37,107 nucleotides of DNA from positions 1-37,107 of the IMG/VR virus record IMGVR_UViG_3300010153_000032; one strand, given 5' to 3'. This DNA comes from a virus. This document shows positions 15,867 through 32,012 of this stretch, one piece after another. Each line of letters begins with the position of its first letter. The stretch's first letter is position 1. The notes below the pieces were generated by a model that did no database searches, had not been told where the DNA came from, and saw only the letters and a program-made list of their open reading frames with translations. Both the position numbers and the translations under genes were made by a program.

Positions 15867-16568
15867 ATGATTAAACTAACAGACATATTAAACGAAGGTG
15901 TTTATGACCCAGGTATATTCAAAGCTGTATTCACAGCAGGTGGTCCTGGATCAGGAAAATCTTACGCGGCATCAACACTATTTGGTATGCCGGAAAGAAT
16001 GCCTTTTGTATCAGCACAAGGACTAAAAGGTGTAAACTCAGATTCAGCGTTTGAAACGTACATGGAAAAAGCAAAAATGACAACCGATTTGCAAAAATTA
16101 ACAGGTAGTCAGTTCAAAAAAGCTATGGAGTTGAGAGATAAAGCAAAACGAGTTACTGTAAAAAGAATGAATGATTTTATCAATGGGAAGTTAGGAATGT
16201 TAATCGATGGTACGGGTAAAAACTATCCTAAAATTGAAAAAATGGTAACTGCACTTCGAAAGGAAGGATATGATTGCTATATGGTATTTGTAAATACTGA
16301 TCTGAGTGTAGCACTACAGCGAAATGCAGAAAGAGAACGCGTACTTCCAGAAAAATTAGTAAAAGATTCATGGCATGCAGTACAAAACAACATGGGTAAA
16401 TTTCAATCATTGTTTGGAAGTAGTAATATGTTAGTTGTAGACAACTCAGAAAAGAAAAAATTTCCAGATGTAGTCAAAAAAGGTGCAAATAAATTTGTTA
16501 AAAGACCAGTAAAGAATCATGTTGCCAAGGATTGGATCAAAAAAGAATTGGAGTTGAGAAAATCATGA
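15867..16568 (+). CDS. Zeta-toxin-like P-loop kinase with possible capsid-targeting leader
   Basis: A 233-residue P-loop kinase. The Walker A motif GGPGSGKS is at residues 25-32, followed by GVNSDSAFE, which matches the substrate-side Asp region of zeta toxin and polynucleotide-kinase relatives. LIDGTGKNYPKIEKM and RNAERERVLPEKL fit the later strand and the arginine-rich lid. Zeta-type enzymes phosphorylate small molecules such as UDP-sugars; relatives act on nucleic acid ends, so the substrate is open. The N-terminus MIKLTDILNE|G ends in LNE before a small residue, like the ten-residue leaders of T4 internal proteins cut by gp21. No Shine-Dalgarno is seen. It overlaps the next gene by four bases (ATGA). 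No antitoxin partner is visible. Confidence 0.75.
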   Translation: MIKLTDILNEGVYDPGIFKAVFTAGGPGSGKSYAASTLFGMPERMPFVSAQGLKGVNSDSAFETYMEKAKMTTDLQKLTGSQFKKAMELRDKAKRVTVKRMNDFINGKLGMLIDGTGKNYPKIEKMVTALRKEGYDCYMVFVNTDLSVALQRNAERERVLPEKLVKDSWHAVQNNMGKFQSLFGSSNMLVVDNSEKKKFPDVVKKGANKFVKRPVKNHVAKDWIKKELELRKS

Positions 16569-18916
16569 GTTTAGGTAAGTATTTAGCAGAACAGGTCATC
16601 AATGAAGACTCTAAAATTAAAACTATTGTAGCAATCTATCCAGGTAGATTTCAACCTATGGGTGCACATCATGCAAAAACGTACAAATGGCTTCAATCCA
16701 AATTTGCAGATACATGGGTAGCTACTAGTGGTAAGGTATCTTTACCAAAATCTCCTTTTTCATTTGGAGAAAAAATGAAGATAATAAAATCTCATGGAAT
16801 TACAAAGGTAAAGAAAGTAAAAAGTCCATACAAAGCTGAAGAAATTCTAAAAAAATATGATCCAGAAACTACAGCAGCTGTATTCATGTTTGGTAAAAAG
16901 GATGCGGGAAGATTAAGCGGTAAATTCTTTAGACCTTGGAAAGGTAAAGCTGAAGTTGGATATAAAGAAGGTGCATATATAATAGAAGCACCACATGTTA
17001 GTATGAATGTACCTGGATATGGAGAGATGAGTGGTACTGCGATAAGAAAAGCTCTAGGCGATAAGGAGTTAGATCCTAAAACCAAAAAGAAAGTATTCAA
17101 AGGTATATTTGGCCACACTAAAAACTATGATATGATTACAGATAGATTGGAATCATTGAATGAGGTAATCGAAGAGTTTTGTCAAGAATTCAATATTTCA
17201 AAATACCTAGCAGAATCGACTATTCAAGCAGGGGGAGTACCAACAGATGACGGCCCAAGATATTTCAGATCTAGTATGAAGGGATATAAGACAGAAACTA
17301 GAAAGCAAGCAAATAGACTAGGATGGGCAGTCGTTGATTATATTGTAGGTGGGTTAGAAAAACTTGAAACTCACGCCACAGATTATCCAAATAGAATTCA
17401 TATGCATACAGGAGCACCAGTAGGACCAGTTTCATTTGCTCCTGCAGGTATACAAGAACCAACTGATAGGTCAGATCGAACGGACTTTAGAGGTTCTAAA
17501 TCATATAACATGTGGAAAAAACATATTGATAAAGTAGTTAATACGTTAGGGTGGAAATTTGTAGATTGGAGCGGTGAAGATAAGAAAAATATAATAGATA
17601 CATCTAAAAAAGAACCAAAAAAGCAAGAAAGATCCAAATATGCAGCAGCTGGAATAAAAGCTGATGTAAAAGATGTAAAGAAACGAGAAAGACAAGCAAA
17701 AAAGCTATCAGAAGGACTTTTATTAGAAGGCGGAGCTTATGGTCATATGTCACATCCCTTTGATGATAAAGGTTTAACGTTTGGAGACTTCAAAGAAATT
17801 ATAAAAATATCACTTCAAGGTAATTTGGATCTTGAACAAGGAGCGACTGAAAAAACTGACGGACAAAATTTATTTATAACTTGGGACGGTAAGTTAAAAG
17901 CAGCAAGAAACGGTGGAGATCTTAAAAAAGGTGGAATGGATGCTAAGGCAGTAGCAAAGAAGTTTGCTGGTAGAGGTAATATAGAGAAGGCATTTACATA
18001 TGCAATGAAAGATCTTTCGAAAGCAATTGGCAGTTTAAGTGATAAACAAAAAGAAAAAATATTTGATGGTGGAAATAATTGGGTAAATATGGAAATCATG
18101 TACCCAGCATCATCAAACGTAATAATGTATGATGCACCATACTTACAATTTCATAATGTTCTAAAATATAAAGATGGAACTGCAATTGGAGCGGTTTCAG
18201 ATGGAGCAAGAATACTTGCTGGAATGATTCAACAAGTAAATCAAAACGTACAAAAGAATTTTAGTGTAATTGGACCAAAAATATTAAAAGTTAAACCACA
18301 TCAAGATTTCTCAGCAAAACAATCTTACTTTCTTGCAAAAATAAAAAAGTTAATGTCACCGTATAATATGAAAGACACATCAACATTTGCAGAATACCAT
18401 CAAGCTTGGTGGGAAGAATATGTAATTAAAAATTTAGGCGATTTAAGCAATGAAGTAAAATGGCCACTTATTCGTAGATGGGCATTCTCAGAGAAATCGT
18501 TTAGATTGAATGCAAAAAATATTCCATATCCAGATATTCTTGAAAAAGCTAAACAAATCGATAAACAAAAGCATCAAGCACAAGTAAAAAAGAATATGTT
18601 GCCATTTGAAAAATTATTCTTCGAACTTGGAGCGGAAGTACTAAAGAATGTTGAAAATTTCCTAGCTGCAAACCCAGATAAAGCAATTCAAAATATCAGA
18701 AAGCAAGTAGCTGCAGCTGTTAAGCACGTTCGTAAAGGAGGTGATCTAAAAAACATTAACAAGCTGAAAGCTCAATTGGAAAAAATTCAAGGTATTGGTG
18801 GATTCAAAACGATAGTACCATCAGAGGGATTAGTATTTATATATAAGGGAAACACTTATAAATTGACGGGTGCATTCGCTCCAATAAATCAAATTACTGG
18901 AATGTTATACTTCTAG
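16565..18916 (+). CDS. Cytidylyltransferase-type domain fused to nucleic-acid-ligase-like domain
   Basis: About 783 residues. An ATG at 16532 is in frame, but 16565 overlaps the kinase stop as ATGA with GGAG upstream and is preferred. Residues 20-165 form a cytidylyltransferase/NMNAT-like domain: GRFQPMGAHH at 27-36 (HxGH-type site) and SGTAIR at 156-161. Residues ~390-783 resemble covalent nucleotidyltransferases: K430-T-D-G (motif I, adenylated Lys), RNGG near 448 (Ia), NMEIMYP with Glu510 (III), EGLVFIY with Glu754 (IV) and YKL with Lys766 (V). This suggests an ATP-dependent RNA or DNA ligase. Between the domains lie KLSE|G and LLE|G, matching gp21 cleavage sites, so the protein may be split. 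The N-terminus also carries LAE and INE. Fused cytidylyltransferases occur in T4-like cyanophages; the substrate is unknown. Confidence 0.78.
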   Translation: MSLGKYLAEQVINEDSKIKTIVAIYPGRFQPMGAHHAKTYKWLQSKFADTWVATSGKVSLPKSPFSFGEKMKIIKSHGITKVKKVKSPYKAEEILKKYDPETTAAVFMFGKKDAGRLSGKFFRPWKGKAEVGYKEGAYIIEAPHVSMNVPGYGEMSGTAIRKALGDKELDPKTKKKVFKGIFGHTKNYDMITDRLESLNEVIEEFCQEFNISKYLAESTIQAGGVPTDDGPRYFRSSMKGYKTETRKQANRLGWAVVDYIVGGLEKLETHATDYPNRIHMHTGAPVGPVSFAPAGIQEPTDRSDRTDFRGSKSYNMWKKHIDKVVNTLGWKFVDWSGEDKKNIIDTSKKEPKKQERSKYAAAGIKADVKDVKKRERQAKKLSEGLLLEGGAYGHMSHPFDDKGLTFGDFKEIIKISLQGNLDLEQGATEKTDGQNLFITWDGKLKAARNGGDLKKGGMDAKAVAKKFAGRGNIEKAFTYAMKDLSKAIGSLSDKQKEKIFDGGNNWVNMEIMYPASSNVIMYDAPYLQFHNVLKYKDGTAIGAVSDGARILAGMIQQVNQNVQKNFSVIGPKILKVKPHQDFSAKQSYFLAKIKKLMSPYNMKDTSTFAEYHQAWWEEYVIKNLGDLSNEVKWPLIRRWAFSEKSFRLNAKNIPYPDILEKAKQIDKQKHQAQVKKNMLPFEKLFFELGAEVLKNVENFLAANPDKAIQNIRKQVAAAVKHVRKGGDLKNINKLKAQLEKIQGIGGFKTIVPSEGLVFIYKGNTYKLTGAFAPINQITGMLYF

Positions 18917-21228: not shown

Positions 21229-22812
21229 ATGGCCAAACAAAATCTCAAAAGTATAATATCATCTGAATACACTAAGTGTGCAAAGGATCCAGTATATTTC
21301 ATGAAGAAATATTGTATGATCCAACATCCCACACGTGGAAAGATACACTTTAATCTATACCAATTTCAAGAAAGAGCTCTGGACGAGTTTGCAAATAACG
21401 ATTACAACATCATATTGAAATCTAGACAGTTAGGAATATCCACCTTATCAGCTGGATATTCATTGTGGTCGATGATATTTAATCAAGACTTCAATGTGTT
21501 AGTAATTGCAACCAAACAAGAGGTGGCTAAAAATCTAGTTACTAAAGTAAGAGTAATGCACGAATATTTACCTAGCTGGTTAAAAGGTAATACTATAGAG
21601 GATAATAAGTTAAGTCTCCGTTTTGCAAACGGATCTCAAATCAAAGCAGTATCAGCTGCAGGAGATGCAGGTAGATCGGAAGCATTATCATTACTCGTAA
21701 TGGATGAAGCAGCTTTTATTGATAAGATTGGAGAGATATGGGCTTCTGCACAACAAACATTAGCAACTGGTGGTAAGTGTATTATATTATCAACACCAAA
21801 TGGAACTGGAAATTTTTTCCACAAAACATGGGTGAAGGCTGAAGCAGATGAAAATAAATTCAATACTATAAGATTACATTGGACAGTACATCCAGAACGA
21901 AATCAAGATTGGAGAGATGAGCAGGATTCACTATTAGGTCCTAAAATGGCATCTCAAGAATGTGATTGTGATTTTATATCATCTGGTCATACCGTAGTAG
22001 AAGGAAATCTACTTCAATGGTTCAAAGAAACGTATCAATTGGATCCACAAGAACGTAGAGGGATTGGTGGTGATTATTGGATCTGGGAATATCCAGATTA
22101 TTCAAAGAATTATATGGTCGTTGCCGACGTCGCGAGAGGAGATTCATCAGATTACTCTACATTTCATGTGATGGAGGTAGAGACTGTTTCCCAAGTAGCA
22201 GAGTTTAAGGGACAGCTATCGACTAAGGAATTTGGAAATATGTTAGTCAACGTTGCAACAGAATGGAACAATGCATTGTTAGTTGTAGAGAATGCAAACG
22301 TAGGTTGGGCAGCTATTCAAGTAGCTATTGATAGAGAATACAAGAATTTATACTATACATATAGAAACGATGGTGTTACTGACTTCGAGGTAGCTATGGA
22401 TAAGGGATATGATCTAAAAAATAAGTCCCAAATGGTTCCAGGTTTCACAACATCAGCAAGAACTAGACCACTTTTGATATCGAAACTAGATATTTATTTC
22501 AGAGAAAAGGAATGTGTTGTCCGTTCTAAACGGTTGATAGACGAGTTGTTTGTCTTCATTTGGAATGGTTCAAAAGCGGAGGCGCAACAAGGGTATAACG
22601 ATGATTTGGTGATGGCATTTGCTATTGGTTTATACGTACGTGATACAGCACTCAAGTTAAGACAACATGGTTTGGATCTAAATAGAGCAGCTCTTTCGTC
22701 GTTGGGCAACTCTAAAACTAAAAGTGTATACACATCAAACGACAATTACGTTCCAGGACAGTGGGACACAAATATGGGAGATCATACTGAAGATCTCACT
22801 TGGTTATTATAG
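21229..22812 (+). CDS. gp17: Terminase large subunit (DNA-packaging ATPase/nuclease)
   Basis: The 527-residue T4 gp17-type packaging motor cuts concatemeric DNA and pumps it through the portal into the prohead. The ATPase domain has the adenine-binding YQFQERALDEF region, the Walker A-like SRQLGIST at 65-72, the Walker B LLVMDEAAF at 156-163 with Asp159-Glu160, and the coupling motif LSTPNGTGNF near 188. The RNase H-like nuclease has VADVARGD with Asp300, LVVENAN with Glu354 and GYNDDLVMA with Asp458-459, matching the expected three acids. The Walker A lacks the usual GK(T/S) lysine; Ile is there instead, with Lys64 or Arg66 as likely substitutes, as in other phage terminases. T4 gp17 is longer (610), so the N-terminus is shorter here. 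No small terminase is seen in the window. Confidence 0.96.
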   Translation: MAKQNLKSIISSEYTKCAKDPVYFMKKYCMIQHPTRGKIHFNLYQFQERALDEFANNDYNIILKSRQLGISTLSAGYSLWSMIFNQDFNVLVIATKQEVAKNLVTKVRVMHEYLPSWLKGNTIEDNKLSLRFANGSQIKAVSAAGDAGRSEALSLLVMDEAAFIDKIGEIWASAQQTLATGGKCIILSTPNGTGNFFHKTWVKAEADENKFNTIRLHWTVHPERNQDWRDEQDSLLGPKMASQECDCDFISSGHTVVEGNLLQWFKETYQLDPQERRGIGGDYWIWEYPDYSKNYMVVADVARGDSSDYSTFHVMEVETVSQVAEFKGQLSTKEFGNMLVNVATEWNNALLVVENANVGWAAIQVAIDREYKNLYYTYRNDGVTDFEVAMDKGYDLKNKSQMVPGFTTSARTRPLLISKLDIYFREKECVVRSKRLIDELFVFIWNGSKAEAQQGYNDDLVMAFAIGLYVRDTALKLRQHGLDLNRAALSSLGNSKTKSVYTSNDNYVPGQWDTNMGDHTEDLTWLL

Positions 22813-22824
22813 GAGAAAAATAAA

Positions 22825-24693
22825 ATGGCGGATACTACGTTTTTCGGAAGGTTAAAAACATTATTCAATACTGGAACAATAATGCGTCGAGGATTAGACG
22901 GACGAGTTCGAGTAACGGATACAAATAAACTGCAATCGGTTGGAAATTTAGCAACTAATAAGATTGTAGATAGATATTCAAGATTGTTCGGATCTCAAAC
23001 ACAACAATCATCATTTGGTACAGCAGCAAACTTCCAATCGATGAGACTACAATTATTTACAGACTATGAATCTATGGATGAGGATTCAATCATATCATCA
23101 GCTTTAGATATATATGCAGACGAATCTTCATTAAAGAATGAATATCATGATGTTTTGAATATCGAATGTGAAAATGATGAAGTTCAAAAGGTATTACATA
23201 ATTTATTCTATGATGTTCTCAATATAGAATTTAATCTCTGGCCGTGGATTCGTAACATGGTAAAATATGGTGATTTCTTTTTGAAATTAGACATAACAGA
23301 GAAGTTTGGAGTCACAAACGTCTCACCAGTTTCATCATATGAATTATTCAGAGAAGAAGGATTCGATCCAAACGATCCTGAAGGAGTACGTTTTGTGCAT
23401 GAAACCTTAATGGGAACTAACATGAGCTCATCCGGACAAAATAAAACCCATTACGAGAATTATGAAATAGCTCACTTCAGACTATTGTCAGATACAAACT
23501 TTTTACCTTATGGTAAATCGATGATTGAAGCAGCTAGAAAGGTTTGGAAACAGTTAACTCTTATGGAAGACGCAATGTTAATCCATAGAGTAATGAGAGC
23601 TCCAGAAAGAAGAATATTCAAAATTGATATAGGTAATATACCACCAAATGAAGTAGAAAACCACATGAACCAAGTTGTCAATAAGATGAAGAAGGTTCCA
23701 TTTGTTGATAGACAAACAGGACAATATAATCTTAAATTCAACATGGAAAATATGTTAGAAGATTACTATCTTCCAATAAGAGGTGGACAATCAGGAACAG
23801 AAATAGACACATTATCTGGAATGGAATTCACTGGAATTGAAGATATAGAGTATTTAAGGAATAGAATGCTAGCAGCACTTAAAATTCCGAAAGCATTCTT
23901 AGGATATGATGAGAATATCGAAGGAAAAGCAACTCTAGCAGCAGAGGATGTTCGATTTGCAAGAACGATAGAAAGAATTCAAAAGATTGTTGTATCAGAA
24001 TTAACAAAAATTGCAATCGTTCACTTATATTCACAAGGATTTGATGATGAAAAATTAGTTGATTTTGAATTAACATTGACAAATCCATCAATGATATACG
24101 AACAAGAAAAGATTTCTCTTTGGAACGAAAAAGTAAGCCTTGCAGCATCGATAAAGTCAGATAAGATACTATCATCTGATTGGATATATGAAAATATTTG
24201 GGGAATGAGTAAAGAGGAGATAGAATCCCAGAATGAAGGATTAGCTAAGGATGCAAAGGAAACTCACAGGTTGACTCAACTAGAGGATGAAGGTAATGAT
24301 CCACAAGTAACGCAAGAATCTTTTATAAATGGAGAGCCAAGATATAAATCAGCTTTTGATTTGAGTGAATTAGAAGAAGACGAGCATGAAGAAGGAGCTT
24401 TAGGTAGACCAAAAGAAAGAACTAAATACAATACAGATAAGCATGTACGAGATAGAGATCCAATTGGTAAAAAAGCTCGTGGAAAAGGAAGGGATGCTGA
24501 TAGAACTGTAAAACATAAATATAAAAACGGAAGTGCACTAGCGCGAGAAGCTAAATTATCAACGGCAAAATCTATAAAAAATCGAATGCCAGCTGGTAAA
24601 ACTAAAAATATAATAAAAGAAACGTTTAGCATTAAGCAGGACCAAGTTGAACCTAGGTTATTGGACGAACGAAACTTAATAGACTTGGACTAA
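22825..24693 (+). CDS. gp20: Portal vertex protein
   Basis: A 622-residue T4 gp20-type portal, the dodecameric ring through which DNA enters and leaves and on which the prohead is built. It follows terminase with only 12 bases between and has an AGGAGA site. Typical family segments include MDEDSIISSALDIYADES near residue 80, HRVMRAPERRIFKIDIGN near 255 and KIPKAFLGYDENIEGKA near 355. The core ends around residue 500. An added C-terminal tail of ~100 residues is highly charged (RPKERTKYN, KKARGKGRDADR) and may be disordered or contact DNA or the core. The protein is longer than T4 gp20 (524). Confidence 0.95.
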   Translation: MADTTFFGRLKTLFNTGTIMRRGLDGRVRVTDTNKLQSVGNLATNKIVDRYSRLFGSQTQQSSFGTAANFQSMRLQLFTDYESMDEDSIISSALDIYADESSLKNEYHDVLNIECENDEVQKVLHNLFYDVLNIEFNLWPWIRNMVKYGDFFLKLDITEKFGVTNVSPVSSYELFREEGFDPNDPEGVRFVHETLMGTNMSSSGQNKTHYENYEIAHFRLLSDTNFLPYGKSMIEAARKVWKQLTLMEDAMLIHRVMRAPERRIFKIDIGNIPPNEVENHMNQVVNKMKKVPFVDRQTGQYNLKFNMENMLEDYYLPIRGGQSGTEIDTLSGMEFTGIEDIEYLRNRMLAALKIPKAFLGYDENIEGKATLAAEDVRFARTIERIQKIVVSELTKIAIVHLYSQGFDDEKLVDFELTLTNPSMIYEQEKISLWNEKVSLAASIKSDKILSSDWIYENIWGMSKEEIESQNEGLAKDAKETHRLTQLEDEGNDPQVTQESFINGEPRYKSAFDLSELEEDEHEEGALGRPKERTKYNTDKHVRDRDPIGKKARGKGRDADRTVKHKYKNGSALAREAKLSTAKSIKNRMPAGKTKNIIKETFSIKQDQVEPRLLDERNLIDLD

Positions 24694-26101: not shown

Positions 26102-26448
26102 TGAAACAGCTCGATGAAAAATTATCTTCAGCAGCTAAGGTAGCTATTGGTGCATTGATATATCAGCAAGTCAAAAAGATGAAGCAGAATATCAATTTGG
26201 CAAATAAAAAGGCAGATCTTGCTAATAGTGAGATTGAAAAGAAGGAAAAAGAAATAAACGACCTTCAAAAGCGATTACAGACGGTAGCATCAGCGGGAGA
26301 AGACTTAGGGAAAGCTATTATCAACAGGCCTAGCGGTGGATTTGAAAAATCTCAATTAGATCAGATACGAAAGATGATTAGAAAAGAGGTTGGAAGGATT
26401 CTTTTTGATATTTATAAACTAAGAAACGCGTGGGCAAATAGATCCTAA
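26101..26448 (+). CDS. Coiled-coil prohead-region protein
   Basis: A 115-residue protein with a clear coiled coil in the middle (NLANKKADLANSEIEKKEKE, then INDLQKRLQTV) and a basic helical C-terminus (KSQLDQIRKMIRKEVGRILF). It begins MKQLDE|K, an LxE site that could be cut by the protease encoded next. It is coupled to the previous gene by TAATG and lies 11 bases before gp21. The position matches a T4 gp67/gp68 core role. TATTTATA also occurs inside its end (26409-26416) and could serve gp21, but it may simply encode DIYK. Confidence 0.62.
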   Translation: MKQLDEKLSSAAKVAIGALIYQQVKKMKQNINLANKKADLANSEIEKKEKEINDLQKRLQTVASAGEDLGKAIINRPSGGFEKSQLDQIRKMIRKEVGRILFDIYKLRNAWANRS

Positions 26449-26459
26449 GGAGACAACAA

Positions 26460-27071
26460 ATGGCAAAAGAACTTTTAATAGATTATACAACATTCCAAAT
26501 AACACCTCAGATGATTAAAGAATCTGAAGAAGCTAACGGAGGACGTGTTATTGTACAAGGAGTGTTGCAAAGATCTGGAGCAAAAAATCAAAACGGAAGA
26601 GTTTATCCAAAAGATATTTTAGCTCGTGAAGTGGAAAATTATAAAAAGGTTCAAATAGCTGAGAGAAGAGCTCTTGGAGAATTAGATCATCCAGAATCAT
26701 CTGTAGTAAATTTACAAAATGTTTCACACAACGTACAAGATGTATGGTGGAAAGGAGATGATGTAGTAGGAAAAGTAGAGATTCTAGGAACACCGTCAGG
26801 AAATATACTAAAAGAATTACTAAAAGCAGGTATTAAATTAGGAATATCTAGTAGAGGGTTAGGATCAGTTAAATCAATAGGTGAAAACACGGTAGCGGTA
26901 GAAGATGATTTTGAATTGATATGTTGGGACTTTGTTTCAAATCCTTCAACGCATGGAGCTTTTATGGCACCAGTAAATGAAGGTGTAAATAACCAAGCAA
27001 GTGAATGGGACGTATGTGATAAGTATTGCAAAACGAATTCAATCATTCGTGATATATTAGGAGATCTATAA
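26460..27071 (+). CDS. gp21: Prohead core protease
   Basis: A 203-residue T4 gp21-type serine protease (prohead assembly peptidase, similar in size to T4 gp21). It digests the scaffold and trims capsid subunits at (L/I)xE sites before DNA packaging. ALGELDHPE places the catalytic His at residue 77 and GISSRGLGS the nucleophile at Ser130 or Ser131. The N-terminal RVYPKDILAREVENY and late WDFVSNPSTHGAFM are family hallmarks. The C-terminal region contains VNEGVNN, which may be part of self-removal. A strong AAGGAGA site precedes it, and its stop overlaps the next ATG. The assignment is firm. Confidence 0.94.
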   Translation: MAKELLIDYTTFQITPQMIKESEEANGGRVIVQGVLQRSGAKNQNGRVYPKDILAREVENYKKVQIAERRALGELDHPESSVVNLQNVSHNVQDVWWKGDDVVGKVEILGTPSGNILKELLKAGIKLGISSRGLGSVKSIGENTVAVEDDFELICWDFVSNPSTHGAFMAPVNEGVNNQASEWDVCDKYCKTNSIIRDILGDL

Positions 27072-27361
27072 TGAGTAAATATGTAAATAAAAACGGTAAA
27101 TTCAATCATGGAAAGTGGTTAAGAGAAAAATCAATACAAGGATCGTTAAATGAAAACGCTGGTAGTGATTTTCAAAAGCAGTTTGAATTCAAAGCTGATG
27201 AGTTTATGGAAACTTACCTTACTCACTTCGAAATGATGGTAGATGAAGATAAAATGCCGAGAAGTGAATTTAATAAATTAGACAAAATGTGGACGTCTTG
27301 TAAAAAAACAATGGAAAAAATGACCGATCAACTTAAAAAGACATCAACAAAGTACCTTTAG
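27071..27361 (+). CDS. Small head-module protein, unknown
   Basis: A 96-residue protein coupled to the protease by TAATG. Near residue 35 SLNE|NAGSD resembles a cleavage site of the neighbouring protease. The remainder is helical (FKADEFMETYLTHFEMMVDE) and Lys-rich at the end. The position between protease and scaffold suggests a small core or internal protein. I know no family. Confidence 0.6.
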   Translation: MSKYVNKNGKFNHGKWLREKSIQGSLNENAGSDFQKQFEFKADEFMETYLTHFEMMVDEDKMPRSEFNKLDKMWTSCKKTMEKMTDQLKKTSTKYL

Positions 27362-27371
27362 GAGAAATATA

Positions 27372-27887
27372 ATGAAATTAAAAAAAATATACGAATCGTT
27401 TGAAAGCGATAGACCAAAAGTAACGAAGGAAGATAGAAAGGCTTTCTTAGAAAACATTAGCAATTTCTCCTCGTTCGGAAAAAATATCTATAGAGAAGCT
27501 TCTCTAAAAGAAACAGTACAATCTATCAAAGAATTAACGGAAACAGCAGGACATATAGCTTTATCAGAAGGTGATGATTGGTTCGACAATATGTCAGTAA
27601 AAAGAGATATGACTGAAGTATCTCGAGCGACTAAATTATTTGAAAAAGCAGCAAAAGAAATGAGCGTTCTACAACAACGTACTGAATCTTTATATGAAGA
27701 GATAGGTATGAGATTATCTAAATATTTCGATATGAATGAAGCTACAGATCACATAGATGATACAGAAGCTGCAACTAAATTCGATGCAATGAAAGATAAA
27801 GATGTAGATAATGATGGTGAAGTAGACGATCAAGACTCTTATTTACATCATAAATTAGGTGTAGTAGCAAAAAAATCGGATAAGTAA
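27372..27887 (+). CDS. Head-module protein with EF-hand loop
   Basis: A 171-residue protein with an AGGAGA site. Residues ~55-67 contain LTETAGHIALSE|GDDW, with LSE before Gly, a likely gp21 site. A helical middle region follows. Near the C-terminus, Asp144, Asp146, Asp148, Gly149, Val151, Asp152 and Asp155 form a textbook 12-residue calcium-binding loop (DVDNDGEVDDQD). To my recollection a similar motif recurs in proteins of T4-like marine phages. It may bind calcium in the capsid or prohead core. The function is otherwise unknown; the loop itself is clear. Confidence 0.68.
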   Translation: MKLKKIYESFESDRPKVTKEDRKAFLENISNFSSFGKNIYREASLKETVQSIKELTETAGHIALSEGDDWFDNMSVKRDMTEVSRATKLFEKAAKEMSVLQQRTESLYEEIGMRLSKYFDMNEATDHIDDTEAATKFDAMKDKDVDNDGEVDDQDSYLHHKLGVVAKKSDK

Positions 27888-27892
27888 ATTAA

Positions 27893-28489
27893 ATGGCACG
27901 TGTAACTAAATCTACGTTAAAAGGATATTTTCAAAAGGGAAGTATTCCATCTCAAACAGAGTTTGAGAGTTTAATTGATACGACAGCAGCACCAACATCA
28001 ACATCTGTGGATTATGGTACTGGAGTTCAAGGGACTGGTGATACATACCAACTAGATATAGCAGAACTCAATGGCGAAAAAATCACAACGGTTATTATGG
28101 ATCTTCAAGGGTTGAGTGGATCAGCTGCGGATAATGGAATTATAGGAATAAGTGGATCAGACTCTAGCTATCTATTAAAGTGGGATACTGCGATTCATGG
28201 GAATCTATACAAAGTTGACTTAGGTTGTGGAGAAACCTTAGCTGGATCGGTGAATGATGTAGATCTTGCATTCTCAGCTTCAATTCAAAGTACATTTGCA
28301 ACTGTGACTCAAAGTAATGCAGTAATACTTACTTCAGATTCAGCACGAGACTCAGGTGAGTTCAAAACTACATCAACTATAACGGGAGTGCCATCTACCG
28401 ATGATTATATATACATGACGAATGGTACATCAGGAACTGCGGGTATATACACAGCAGGAAAACTTATTATAAAATTCTACGGAATATAG
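27893..28489 (+). CDS. Capsid- or fibre-associated beta protein
   Basis: A 198-residue protein. Its first 30 residues, VTKSTLKGYFQKGSIPSQTE then FESLIDT, form a short helical anchor that recurs at the start of marine-phage structural proteins. The remainder is Ser/Gly/Thr-rich and beta, ending GTAGIYTAGKLIIKFYGI. The place in the head module favours a head fibre or capsid decoration rather than a tail fibre. No strong ribosome-binding site is seen. No cleavage leader is seen. The promoter of the bS21 unit starts directly after its stop. Confidence 0.64.
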   Translation: MARVTKSTLKGYFQKGSIPSQTEFESLIDTTAAPTSTSVDYGTGVQGTGDTYQLDIAELNGEKITTVIMDLQGLSGSAADNGIIGISGSDSSYLLKWDTAIHGNLYKVDLGCGETLAGSVNDVDLAFSASIQSTFATVTQSNAVILTSDSARDSGEFKTTSTITGVPSTDDYIYMTNGTSGTAGIYTAGKLIIKFYGI

Positions 28490-28520
28490 TTGCAAAATCA
28501 AAAAATATTTCTTATATTTA
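28490..28520 (+). promoter_or_regulatory. Bacteroidetes-like housekeeping promoter for bS21
   Basis: TTG at 28490-28492, immediately after the upstream stop, is followed by 20 bases and TATATTTA at 28513-28520. This resembles the Bacteroidetes primary-sigma consensus (-33 TTG, -7 TAnnTTTG). The last base differs (A for G, although G follows next). It differs from the TATTTATA elements used elsewhere and suggests expression by the host polymerase. Confidence 0.5.
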
Positions 28521-28553
28521 GTATAAATAAATTTATTAACAAAAATTGTACGT

Positions 28554-28907
28554 ATGCAAAAAGACAAAGGCAGTAGCCAAGATGGAAGGAGAGATAGTGG
28601 TCCTCCTCACAAAAATTTCAAAAAAGGATTTCGTAGACCAAGACGTGGTAAACACGAATACTTCATACCAGGAGCACTTGGTATAAAGGTATTGGATGGT
28701 AATATTGAGCTAGCACTCAAAAAACTCAAAAAAGAGATGAAGGAAGCTGGAGTAATATCGGAGTATAGAGAACGTAGGTATTACACTAAAAAATCTCAAG
28801 TAAAGAGAGTTAAGATGGAAGAAGCTCAACGTTGGCAAAAGAAGCTTGATAGAGATAGAGCTAGATATGATAGGAATACAGTCTGGGATTTCAGAAAAAT
28901 CCGATAA
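28554..28907 (+). CDS. rpsU: Phage-encoded ribosomal protein bS21-like
   Basis: A 117-residue, very basic protein. Residues ~43-100 match bS21: VLDGNIELALKKLKKEM, AGVISEYRERRYYTKKS and KRVKMEEAQRWQKKL correspond to its helical and basic blocks. A 42-residue Gly/Arg/Lys-rich N-terminal extension and a short C-terminal extension make it about twice the normal length (~65-70). bS21 sits near the anti-Shine-Dalgarno end of 16S RNA on the 30S platform and influences start choice. Phage bS21 genes are known, including in a pelagiphage. This copy has its own promoter-like signal, no Shine-Dalgarno, and a perfect terminator, so it is a separate unit within the late genes. It could replace host bS21 on ribosomes. 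The family call is good; the effect is inferred. Confidence 0.85.
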   Translation: MQKDKGSSQDGRRDSGPPHKNFKKGFRRPRRGKHEYFIPGALGIKVLDGNIELALKKLKKEMKEAGVISEYRERRYYTKKSQVKRVKMEEAQRWQKKLDRDRARYDRNTVWDFRKIR

Positions 28908-28924
28908 TTATAGCTAAAATGAAG

Positions 28925-28955
28925 AAAAAGAGTAGAGAAATCTACTCTTTTTTTA
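28925..28955 (+). terminator. Rho-independent terminator after bS21
   Basis: A perfect 12-base-pair stem (28925-28936 with 28941-28952) closes on a GAAA loop and runs into a T-tract to 28954. It lies 18 bases after the bS21 stop. Because the left arm begins AAAAA, it could also stop transcription on the other strand, but no minus-strand gene is present. Confidence 0.92.
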
Positions 28956-28965
28956 TATGTATATA

Positions 28966-28973
28966 TATTTATA
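28966..28973 (+). promoter_or_regulatory. TATTTATA element upstream of scaffold gene
   Basis: TATTTATA (context TATATATTTATATGTG) lies 11 bases after the bS21 terminator and 129 bases before the scaffold ATG. Placement after a terminator strongly suggests that it restarts transcription for scaffold and capsid. Confidence 0.6.
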
Positions 28974-28980
28974 TGTGAAT

Positions 28981-29070
28981 ACACTATCAATGATATAGTG
29001 TCTAACGAAATCAACAATAATATTGTTAGATTTCTTAAACAAATTCTATTATAGCTCATCAATAGCTATA
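28981..29070 (+). promoter_or_regulatory. Structured leader of the scaffold/capsid transcript (three hairpins)
   Basis: Three inverted repeats stand in a row: 28981-28987 with 28995-29001 (7 bp); 29007-29018 with 29022-29034 (12 bp with one bulged base); and 29050-29056 with 29064-29070 (7 bp). They lie between the TATTTATA element and the AGGAGA ribosome-binding site. An alternative pairing of 29001-29006 with 29025-29030 competes with the second. None has a T-tract. They may stabilise the messenger or regulate translation; no known RNA family is recognised. Confidence 0.55.
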
Positions 29071-29102
29071 TTTCCAATTAAACATAATATAGGAGAAAAG
29101 TA

Positions 29103-30239
29103 ATGGACAAATTACTAAAAGAAGCAATCGCTGATGCTAAAGCTGTTAGAGAAACTGCTATAGCAAACGCAAAACTAGCTCTTGAAGAAGCGTTTACGCC
29201 AAAACTTCAATCTATGTTATCTGCAAAAATCCGTGAAGAAGAAGAAGAGGAAGTTGAAGATGTACCGGTTGAAGAACCAGTAGCTGAACCAGCTTTAGAT
29301 TCTGAAGAAGAAGGGACTTACGAAGGAGAAGAAATGGAAATGTCTACTGGTGATGAAGAAGGCCACGAAGATGAAGAAATGGAAACTGCTGAAGAAGAAG
29401 AAATGGAAGCTCCAGCAATGGACGCAGCTGAAGAAGAAGGTGAAGAAATGGCACCGGAAATGGATGCGGCTGAAGAAGAAGAAGCTCCTGCAGACGATAT
29501 GGAACTTGAAGCAATCATTAGAGAACTTGAAGATGAAATGGGAACTGAAGAAGAAATGGAAGATGAAGAACCAGTAGCAGAACAATCTGATTCATCAGGT
29601 GTTGGTAACGGCGACAATAAAGTTGTTGTAGCTGACGGCGATGATGAAGAAAAAGCAGAGACTGAAACTTCACCTGGAAACACCATGGGATCTGAAGACG
29701 AAAACATGGACAAGATTTCTGAGAATGCAGAAGAAGGCGAAGAAGAACCAGTTGATCTAGAAGAAATCATCAAATCATTATCAGAAGACCAGTATACTGC
29801 TGGTGTAGATGACGGTGAAGCAGGTGAATCAGTAGAACAACCTGAGTCTCCAGTGGCAGAAGAAACTAAAAAACTGAAAGAAGCGTATGCTACTATCAGA
29901 TTTATGAAAGATAAACTTTCTGAAGTTAATTTGCTAAACGCTAAACTATTATTTACAAACAAATTGTTTAGAAATAATGGTCTTGACGAAGGTCAAAAAC
30001 TAAGAGTGATCGAAACTTTTGATAGAGCGGGATCAGTTAGAGAAGTAAAATTAGTTTACTCTACATTAGCTGAATCGCTTAAATACGATGCAAAAGCGAC
30101 GAAGAAAGTTAAAAAAATTACAGAAGGTTTAGCATCAAAACCTTCAAAATCAACAAAACCTGCTGCTAAAGCAACACCTCTTAACGAAGGTAATGTAATG
30201 GCTGATAGGTTTAAGAAACTAGCTGGATTGATAAAATAA
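29103..30239 (+). CDS. gp22: Prohead core scaffold protein
   Basis: A 378-residue, highly acidic protein. The N-terminal helix (KLLKEAIADAKAVRETAIAN) is followed by ~200 residues dominated by Glu, Asp, Met and Ala, then a helical C-terminal region with NLLNAKLLFTNKLFRNNGL, typical of T4-like gp22. It forms the assembly core inside the prohead and is digested by gp21. Cleavage-like sites ITE|G and LNE|G are present near the C-terminus. It lies directly before the capsid gene, as in T4, and has a strong AGGAGA site. The acidic tract is longer than I expect for T4 gp22 (269 residues in total). Confidence 0.86.
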   Translation: MDKLLKEAIADAKAVRETAIANAKLALEEAFTPKLQSMLSAKIREEEEEEVEDVPVEEPVAEPALDSEEEGTYEGEEMEMSTGDEEGHEDEEMETAEEEEMEAPAMDAAEEEGEEMAPEMDAAEEEEAPADDMELEAIIRELEDEMGTEEEMEDEEPVAEQSDSSGVGNGDNKVVVADGDDEEKAETETSPGNTMGSEDENMDKISENAEEGEEEPVDLEEIIKSLSEDQYTAGVDDGEAGESVEQPESPVAEETKKLKEAYATIRFMKDKLSEVNLLNAKLLFTNKLFRNNGLDEGQKLRVIETFDRAGSVREVKLVYSTLAESLKYDAKATKKVKKITEGLASKPSKSTKPAAKATPLNEGNVMADRFKKLAGLIK

Positions 30240-30272
30240 TATCAACAGCTATAATTTATTAGGAGATAATAT

Positions 30273-32012
30273 ATGAACGTTTCAGGACTAATACAAGATG
30301 CTGGTAATACATACAACAAGCAACTTGACAAGACTCGTGCATTAGTAGGAAAATGGGATAAGACCGGATTATTAGAAGGTATTGACCATGATTATGACAA
30401 GCACGGAATGGCCGTTCTTCTAGAAAACCAAGCTCGTCAATTGATTGATGAAGCTTCAACTGGTGGCAGAGGCACAGGCGCTTCTGGTTACGAGGAATGG
30501 TCGGGCGTTGCTCTTCCATTGGTAAGAAGAATTTTTGCCGAAATCGCTGCAAAAGATTTTGTTAGCGTACAACCAATGAACTTACCATCAGGTCTAGTTT
30601 TCTGGTTAGATTTCAAATATGGTGGTTCAGTAGCTGGAGGAGCATTAAATGGTGCCTTCACTTTGAACGACACAACACAAACTCAAGCGGGTACTTTACA
30701 TGGTACTACTGACGCTGCTGGTGATCCAACTGGTGGTTTATATGGTGCAGGCTCGTACGGTTTTTCTATTAACAATATAGCAATTGATGACTTAGGTACA
30801 GTAGATGATCAATGTGCAACTGCAGCTGTAACTACAGCTCCACAGTTATTCTCAGGATCTTCTGCTTTAGCTACTGACGCAGTATTTAACTGGGATTCAG
30901 ATTTCTCTGCATCTTATCAATCTACACAAGGTGCAACAGGAACTGGTGATGATACTATTAAGGTAATTAGAGTATTAGCATCTGATATCACTGATATGGA
31001 CAAGGAAGGTATAAGAGCATTTGTTCTTAAATCTAACGGTACTGGTGAAATCGCTGCTACTTTCCCTCAATTTACTAAATTAGTTGCTGCTGACGGTTCA
31101 GCTGGAACAACTCACGTACAGTTTGTTGTATCTGGTTCTATAACTGGTGGTGAAACTGACTTAGGTATTGAATACCACAAAGCTCCAACTGATGTTAACA
31201 GAGGTGACTTTGAGCAAGATCAAGCAGGAACTCATGCAAATGCTGAAACTGACTTAGGTATTCCAGAAATTGATGTACAATTAAGAAGTGAAGCAATCGT
31301 TGCTAAGACTAGAAAGCTGAAAGCTGTATGGACTCCTGAGTTCGCACAAGACTTAAACGCTTACCACTCTATCGACGCTGAAGCTGAATTAACTTCTATG
31401 TTATCTGAGTACGTTTCTATGGAAATTGACTTAGAAATCTTAGACATGTTATTCAGAAATGCTTTAACTAAAGACTACTGGTCAGCTAAAATTGGTGAAA
31501 CTTATGATGCTGGAACTTCAACATTCTCAGCAGCTGCTGCAGGACCTGAAGCTTATAATCAAGGTACTTGGTTCCAAACTTTAGGTACTAAGATCCAAAA
31601 AGTTTCTAATACTATTCACCAAAAAACTATGCGTGGTGGTGCAAACTTCTTAGTTTGTTCTCCAAAAGTTGCAACTATTCTAGAATCAATTCCAGGATAT
31701 GCTGCTGATACTGATGGAAACAAATCTGACTTTGCAATGGGTGTTCAAAAAGTTGGTGCTCTTAATTCAAGATACCAAGTTTACAAAAACCCTTACATGT
31801 TAGAAAACCAAATCTTAATGGGCTTTAGAGGTGGACAATTCTTGGAAACAGGTGCTGTTTATGCTCCATATGTTCCATTGATTATGACTCCTCTAGTTTA
31901 CGATCCGAAAAACTTCACTCCAAGAAAAGGTGTGATGACGCGTTATGCGAAAAAGATCGTTAGACCAGAATTCTATGGTGTTGTACAGATTAAAGGTTTA
32001 GACGCTATTTAA
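30273..32012 (+). CDS. gp23: Major capsid protein
   Basis: A 579-residue T4 gp23-type capsid subunit (HK97 fold). The N-terminal propeptide ends at LIDE|A (Glu60-Ala61), the expected gp21 cleavage site; LLE|G at 35 is another. EEWSGVALPLVRRIF and VSVQPMNLPSGLVFWLDF after the cut are family hallmarks, and KAVWTPEFAQDL and the C-terminal YAKKIVRPEFYGVVQIKGL also fit. The mature shell protein would be about 519 residues. An AGGAGATAATAT start context and apparently highly favoured codons imply strong expression. A terminator follows 28 bases after the stop. Confidence 0.97.
   Translation: MNVSGLIQDAGNTYNKQLDKTRALVGKWDKTGLLEGIDHDYDKHGMAVLLENQARQLIDEASTGGRGTGASGYEEWSGVALPLVRRIFAEIAAKDFVSVQPMNLPSGLVFWLDFKYGGSVAGGALNGAFTLNDTTQTQAGTLHGTTDAAGDPTGGLYGAGSYGFSINNIAIDDLGTVDDQCATAAVTTAPQLFSGSSALATDAVFNWDSDFSASYQSTQGATGTGDDTIKVIRVLASDITDMDKEGIRAFVLKSNGTGEIAATFPQFTKLVAADGSAGTTHVQFVVSGSITGGETDLGIEYHKAPTDVNRGDFEQDQAGTHANAETDLGIPEIDVQLRSEAIVAKTRKLKAVWTPEFAQDLNAYHSIDAEAELTSMLSEYVSMEIDLEILDMLFRNALTKDYWSAKIGETYDAGTSTFSAAAAGPEAYNQGTWFQTLGTKIQKVSNTIHQKTMRGGANFLVCSPKVATILESIPGYAADTDGNKSDFAMGVQKVGALNSRYQVYKNPYMLENQILMGFRGGQFLETGAVYAPYVPLIMTPLVYDPKNFTPRKGVMTRYAKKIVRPEFYGVVQIKGLDAI

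Follow-up and report, generated by a model that had tools for sequence, protein, structure and literature searches.

Why should a virus place a gene for ribosomal protein bS21 that lacks a Shine-Dalgarno (SD) sequence among late genes that are led by one? No ribosomal protein is commoner in phages than bS21, and the Bacteroidota retain an anti-Shine-Dalgarno (ASD) sequence that most of their mRNAs never use; in bS21 of the Bacteroidia type, Tyr54 stacks against A1534, diverting the ASD tail. The question is raised by a 37,107-base IMG/VR virus record, the whole of which was analysed and is here called the window. It is the late block of a T4-like myovirus, with terminase, portal, prohead protease, capsid and tail genes directed along the + strand. 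By PHROG annotation, the order in the block is terminase (21229), portal (22825-24693), prohead protease (26460-27071), bS21 (28554-28907) and major capsid (30273-32012), all on the + strand. bS21 therefore sits within the terminase-portal-protease-capsid block on the same strand as the structural genes, as a lone gene between an ORF ending at 28489 and another starting at 29103. Elsewhere amid the structural block, at 15867-18916, a P-loop kinase-like ORF (GGPGSGKS) overlaps a nucleotidyltransferase-like ORF (PGRFQPMGAHH). The bS21 unit and its downstream border comprise the following features.

28489..28521, + strand: early-type promoter, with GTTGC at 28489-28493, a spacer of 19 nt and TATATTTAG at 28513-28521 (matrix of early promoters from Flavobacterium phage immuto)
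28522..28553, + strand: SD-less leader of bS21 from the inferred transcript start, with no AGGA, GGAG or GAGG
28554..28907, + strand: phage bS21 gene from ATG to stop, 117 aa (PF01165; PHROG 21469, ribosomal protein S21)
28554..28673, + strand: basic N-terminal extension of about 40 residues, ending in the motif EYFIPGA (alignment with relatives and Flavobacterium johnsoniae bS21)
28683..28832, + strand: bS21 core domain (PF01165 match)
28830..28835, + strand: codons of Arg93 and Trp94, Arg93 being aligned to F. johnsoniae Tyr54 (ungapped alignment)
28923..28954, + strand: intrinsic terminator of bS21, a 14-bp stem with a GAAA loop and a T-run
28962..28973, + strand: late motif TATATATTTATA ahead of the next gene, matching TATTTATA

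An earlier sequence-only reading of this DNA had called the gene bS21-like, and the call is upheld by the PHROG assignment to ribosomal protein S21 and by a PF01165 match of 50.2 bits against a curated cut-off of 27 (E = 2e-13). The extra N-terminus described there also exists, at about 40 residues by alignment rather than the 42 given, and a C-terminal tail is present beyond the core. AlphaFold predicts helices at residues 51-65, 67-75 and 80-109, in line with expectation for bS21 but with a pTM of only 0.32, and the extension is a low-confidence region without confident predicted structure. The identical protein occurs in two further contigs, and homologues with 74-80% identity are found in the relatives L004 and L005; searches with the protein gave no match among isolate phages at 1e-5 and none in the bacterial genomes scanned. 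A gene located between head genes, with a basic extension that lacks confident predicted structure, might be expected of a protein that acts outside the ribosome, for example in RNA binding or in the virion, and Chen et al. suggested possible packaging of phage bS21 into particles (PMC9723584). The bS21 core is nevertheless well kept and a pelagiphage bS21 enters ribosomes (PMC6375957), and we judge such an extra-ribosomal role very unlikely.

The signals flanking the gene were recognized correctly from the sequence: a host-like promoter of its own, the absence of an SD and a terminator. Scored with a matrix of 20 immuto early promoters, the bS21 promoter reaches 21.7 bits, lower than the lowest training site of the matrix (33 bits), compared with 7.6 bits for the next site in the window and 12.5 bits for the best of 100 shuffles. 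In the related contigs G003 and G004, the top matrix match likewise lies upstream of bS21. The label 'early-type' derives from the positions of such sites in immuto, which lie at 22-76 kb, mostly in a small-gene cluster and never in the structural half, where the motif TATTTATA is common; the class is defined by sequence, not by measured timing. Since the element TATATT[TA] lies upstream of only 17 of 40 extended bS21 genes, a separate early-type promoter is a property of the window clade and several others, not of the whole family. A T4-type late promoter for bS21, TATAAATA at 28522, was considered and dropped, as it is not kept in relatives and the late motif of the family is TATTTATA on the coding strand. 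The latter occurs 12 times on the + strand of the window and once on the - strand, and is enriched upstream of genes across the terminase family.

The bS21 leader contains no SD core and pairs with the ASD tail at +0.9 kcal/mol. At the other end of the unit, the 14-bp hairpin and T-run of the terminator fold at -16.2 kcal/mol (z -6.0) and are kept in L004 and L005. The leader that follows bS21 (28950-29102) is 95-96% identical over about 155 aligned nt in two relatives, a conservation greater than that of bS21 itself, and forms two hairpins, with paired changes in the second stem in L213.

A gene was scored as having an SD when AGGA, GGAG or GAGG lay at -19 to -4 relative to the first ATG of its greedily called ORF, and internal ATGs served as the control; errors in start-site choice dilute the signal. 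An SD core precedes 20 of the 37 window genes, and AGGAG or GGAGG precedes 11 of 37, as opposed to 13% and 2% of internal ATGs. AGGAG sites were located by the SD scan at the following positions.

22811..22815, + strand: AGGAG SD of the portal gene, 22825-24693
26448..26452, + strand: AGGAG SD of the prohead protease gene, 26460-27071
27059..27063, + strand: AGGAG SD of the gene at 27071-27361
27360..27364, + strand: AGGAG SD of the gene at 27372-27887
29091..29095, + strand: AGGAG SD of the gene at 29103-30239, downstream of bS21
30261..30265, + strand: AGGAG SD of the major capsid gene, 30273-32012

The proposal that the late genes mostly carry AGGAG holds for the near neighbours of bS21 (the genes starting at 27071, 27372, 29103 and 30273) and is somewhat overstated for the window overall, at 11 of 37. 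AGGAG spacing in the clade is sharply canonical (6-7 nt), and the window SDs have pairing energies of -6 to -9 kcal/mol, none of them at or below -13 kcal/mol.

This pattern extends across the family, for which relatives were gathered as 160 loci from two terminase scans. The window terminase shares 58-60% identity with its counterparts in immuto, a phage without bS21, and in Mel-JY01, which carries bS21 in the same gene block. Loci bearing bS21 (n = 53) have an SD at 41.6% of 872 genes (control 7.7%), and loci without it that are covered from TerL to MCP (n = 23) have one at 5.5% of 382 genes (control 13.0%), where calls of absence refer to the terminase-capsid stretch and to whole contigs only where these were searched. 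Cultured Bacteroidota phages without bS21 (immuto, 6H, FCL-2, P12002L, phi38:1 and phiST) show SDs at 2-7% of genes. Among extended phage bS21 genes, 0 of 40 have an SD of their own, compared with 30 of 34 next downstream genes, 25 of 39 next upstream genes and 235 of 506 (46%) other same-strand genes. The binomial p of 2e-11 for this contrast overstates independence, because the genes are mutually related; the contrast between SD-less bS21 and its SD-led neighbours is plain despite this kinship. A similar division follows promoter type: across nine contigs, first genes behind early-type promoters have an SD in 10 of 78 cases and a strong SD in none, versus 50 of 106 with 21 strong SDs for first genes behind the late motif (p 6e-7). 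G009 alone, with its overlapping motifs left unseparated, showed no early/late difference in SD; this contig also contains a tmRNA-like match and tRNA-Arg, and the bS21-bearing relative G013 (L128, L129) encodes 24 tRNA genes and a tmRNA (tag GDTSLAIAA). The length of the N-terminal extension was rejected as a predictor of SD use, with which it correlates only weakly (rho 0.26, p 0.03).

The sequence-only reading had pointed to replacement of the host Tyr thought to contact the ASD. The replacement itself is confirmed by ungapped alignment with the F. johnsoniae protein, in which Arg93 occupies the place of Tyr54, inside one continuous predicted helix (AlphaFold, low overall score). Arg followed by Trp is characteristic of the window clade, the same pair occurs in L028 and L029, and the 43 distinct family proteins, also aligned without gaps, have Arg (23), Tyr (13), Phe (1) or other residues (6) at position 54. 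As a cause, however, the replacement is not supported, since phages of the same family that keep Tyr54 use SDs too. SDs are found at 32% of genes where residue 54 is aromatic versus 44% where it is not (p 0.014, uncorrected for kinship). Because aromatic-54 phages use SDs, Tyr54 does not divide SD-using from SD-less phages, and its loss was rejected as a general switch. The aromatic residue in about a third of the family would accord with a host-like function in which the phage protein continues to mask the ASD, a role put forward for freshwater Bacteroidetes phages (PMC9723584); yet the window protein has Arg at this position, and a hidden ASD would not read the SDs of the window's late genes, which makes this function extremely improbable here.

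The host of the phage is probably a member of the Bacteroidota, as the same reading had supposed, judging by strong but indirect evidence from the promoter match, the terminase kinship to Flavobacterium phage immuto, the Tyr54-bearing sister phages and the MAG bins. Bacteroidota-type upstream elements number 37 in immuto (3.2 expected), and promoters of this type number 17, 17 and 16 in the SD-using contigs G009, G043 and G044 (2.6-3.8 expected), whereas 30 kb of a pelagiphage control contained none and showed clear SD use. Six of the eight taxon-named MAGs holding terminase relatives are Bacteroidota, MAG binning of phage contigs being unreliable; among terminase loci in Bacteroidota MAGs, L376 and L383 are SD-rich. 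Were the host instead an ordinary SD-using bacterium outside the Bacteroidota, Arg54 and SD-led genes would be unremarkable. The C-terminal part of the phage protein is indeed similar to proteobacterial bS21, two terminase relatives fall in bins assigned to Pelagibacteraceae and Maricaulis, respectively, Microcystis is the recorded source of Mel-JY01, and the SD-using relatives G014 and G016 lack Bacteroidota-type promoters. Such a host is nonetheless improbable, given the match of the bS21 promoter to immuto early promoters, the promoter counts and MAG assignments above and the sister phages with Tyr54, a residue whose conservation is considered unique to Bacteroidia (PMC9976891). Mel-JY01 (L017, PP395634.1) has 19 promoters of the form TTG, about 20 nt, TATATTTG (1.2 expected), and 12 by another Bacteroidota-type pattern (5.5 expected); in view of these promoters, its listed host assignment may be wrong.

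An SD-less bS21 gene amid SD-led virus genes suggests that the virus re-tunes the host's ribosomes in its own favour. In Bacteroidia, the ASD is hidden in a pocket formed by bS21, bS18 and bS6, and in F. johnsoniae the loss or truncation of bS21, or the change Y54A, increases translation of strong-SD mRNAs, weak-SD mRNA not being helped by Y54A (PMC9976891). In the window phage, host polymerase would transcribe the bS21 unit early, and unmodified host ribosomes with an occluded ASD would translate its mRNA, for which no SD would be needed. Phage bS21 would then displace host bS21 on 30S subunits and make the ASD more available, and AGGAG-led late mRNAs would be favoured. The effect would arise from the extension and the divergent C-terminal helix as a whole, not from loss of Tyr54 alone. 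We give a nearly even chance to the reading that the bS21 unit is a stand-alone early-type transcription unit whose product re-tunes Bacteroidota ribosomes toward SD-led late genes. That an SD-independent early bS21 switches ribosomes from SD-blind to SD-reading, with the SD serving as a tag of late phage mRNAs that host mRNAs lack, is a tentative proposal with the balance somewhat against it.

Retuning, as first put forward for this locus, is supported in part: comparison bears out the probable Bacteroidota host, the SD-less bS21 behind an early-type promoter, the SD-led late genes, the SD-poor early-type genes and the want of SD use in bS21-less relatives, but not Tyr54 as the cause. It draws on the early-type promoter, on the co-occurrence of bS21 and SDs in the family, on the counts of 0 of 40 against 30 of 34 and on the early/late split. 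Against it count the few evolutionary contrasts, the exceptions G027, G008, three huge phages and crAss001, and the SD-using relatives with Tyr54. The window SDs (-6 to -9 kcal/mol) are also weaker than the strong SDs that depend on bS21 in F. johnsoniae (PMC9976891), bS21 is expressed late in other Bacteroidetes phages (PMC9723584), and E. coli ribosomes with pelagiphage bS21 are nearly inactive (PMC6375957).

A different account is that phage bS21 substitutes for the host protein, or supplements it, for another purpose, such as 30S capacity, evasion of host defence or bypass of rpsU autoregulation, and the late SDs depend on some other trait of the lineage. The terminase tree has one deep split and one nested SD-poor subclade and yields only three independent pairs; about two of them fit the link and none contradicts it, a number that does not suffice for significance. 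One pair rests on a subclade that includes G027, the main exception to the trend, which is SD-less with an Arg54-type bS21 just outside the locus (L319-L324); G026, searched over its whole contig, is SD-less with no bS21 in 136 kb. Three of four huge phages with a short, host-like Tyr54 bS21 are SD-less, as is G008, and together with G027 they rule out the presence of bS21 alone as sufficient for SD use. crAss001, without bS21, makes modest use of SDs (24% versus a control of 14%). With so few independent contrasts, the link between bS21 and SDs is suggestive, and host or lineage could explain it. A bS21 serving another purpose would fit a link that rests on very few evolutionary events, SD use by Tyr54-bearing phages, bS21 without SDs in G027 and some SDs without bS21 in crAss001. 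The 0 of 40 own SDs against 30 of 34 in the next gene and the early/late split form a tighter tie than shared ancestry alone predicts, and we consider this account rather unlikely.

Phage bS21 and its proposed takeover of ribosomes are already known, including the proposal that it gives phage mRNAs an advantage (PMC6375957, PMC7162821, PMC9723584). The available text of the literature searched contains no report of a phage bS21 gene that lacks an SD while the late genes around it are SD-led, the literature being a body with most subscription papers and all bioRxiv preprints outside it. The freshwater Bacteroidetes phages of Chen et al. 2022 (PMC9723584) resemble the window phage in carrying bS21 amid terminase, portal, protease and capsid genes, in their Bacteroidetes hosts and in a proposed ribosome entry favouring phage transcripts. 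According to the available text of that report, their bS21 lies on the opposite strand, is expressed at a late stage and in all cases has an aromatic residue 54, unlike the same-strand Arg54 gene of the window with its early-type promoter and SD-led neighbours. Pelagibacter phage HTVC008M (Mizuno et al. 2019, PMC6375957) is likewise a myovirus with bS21, which enters E. coli ribosomes, such ribosomes being nearly inactive; its host is an alphaproteobacterium, and the 30 kb examined show clear SD use and lack promoters of the Bacteroidota type.

As in the autoregulation of bS21 in F. johnsoniae (McNutt et al. 2023, PMC9976891), bS21 content would decide the reading of SD mRNAs in the proposed retuning. 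There, rpsU is typically the sole strong-SD gene; the phages show the reverse, an SD-less bS21 among SD-led genes. If retuning is true, the switch inverts the host circuit, where rpsU stands out by bearing an SD. Phage genomes that apparently divide, around an SD-less bS21, into early genes poor in SDs and late genes led by them would connect the role of phage bS21 with the unused ASD of the Bacteroidota. The N-extended rpS21 of huge phages (Al-Shayeb et al. 2020, PMC7162821) also has a basic, aromatic N-terminal extension, proposed to aid ribosome takeover, and the available text of that study connects it neither with bS21 leaders that lack an SD nor with late genes that carry one. In the 735-kb phage L358 (LR756501.1), a strong SD, aaaggaggataa, stands before a short bS21 of the Tyr54 type, as it does before host rpsU, and 20% of nearby genes have an SD.
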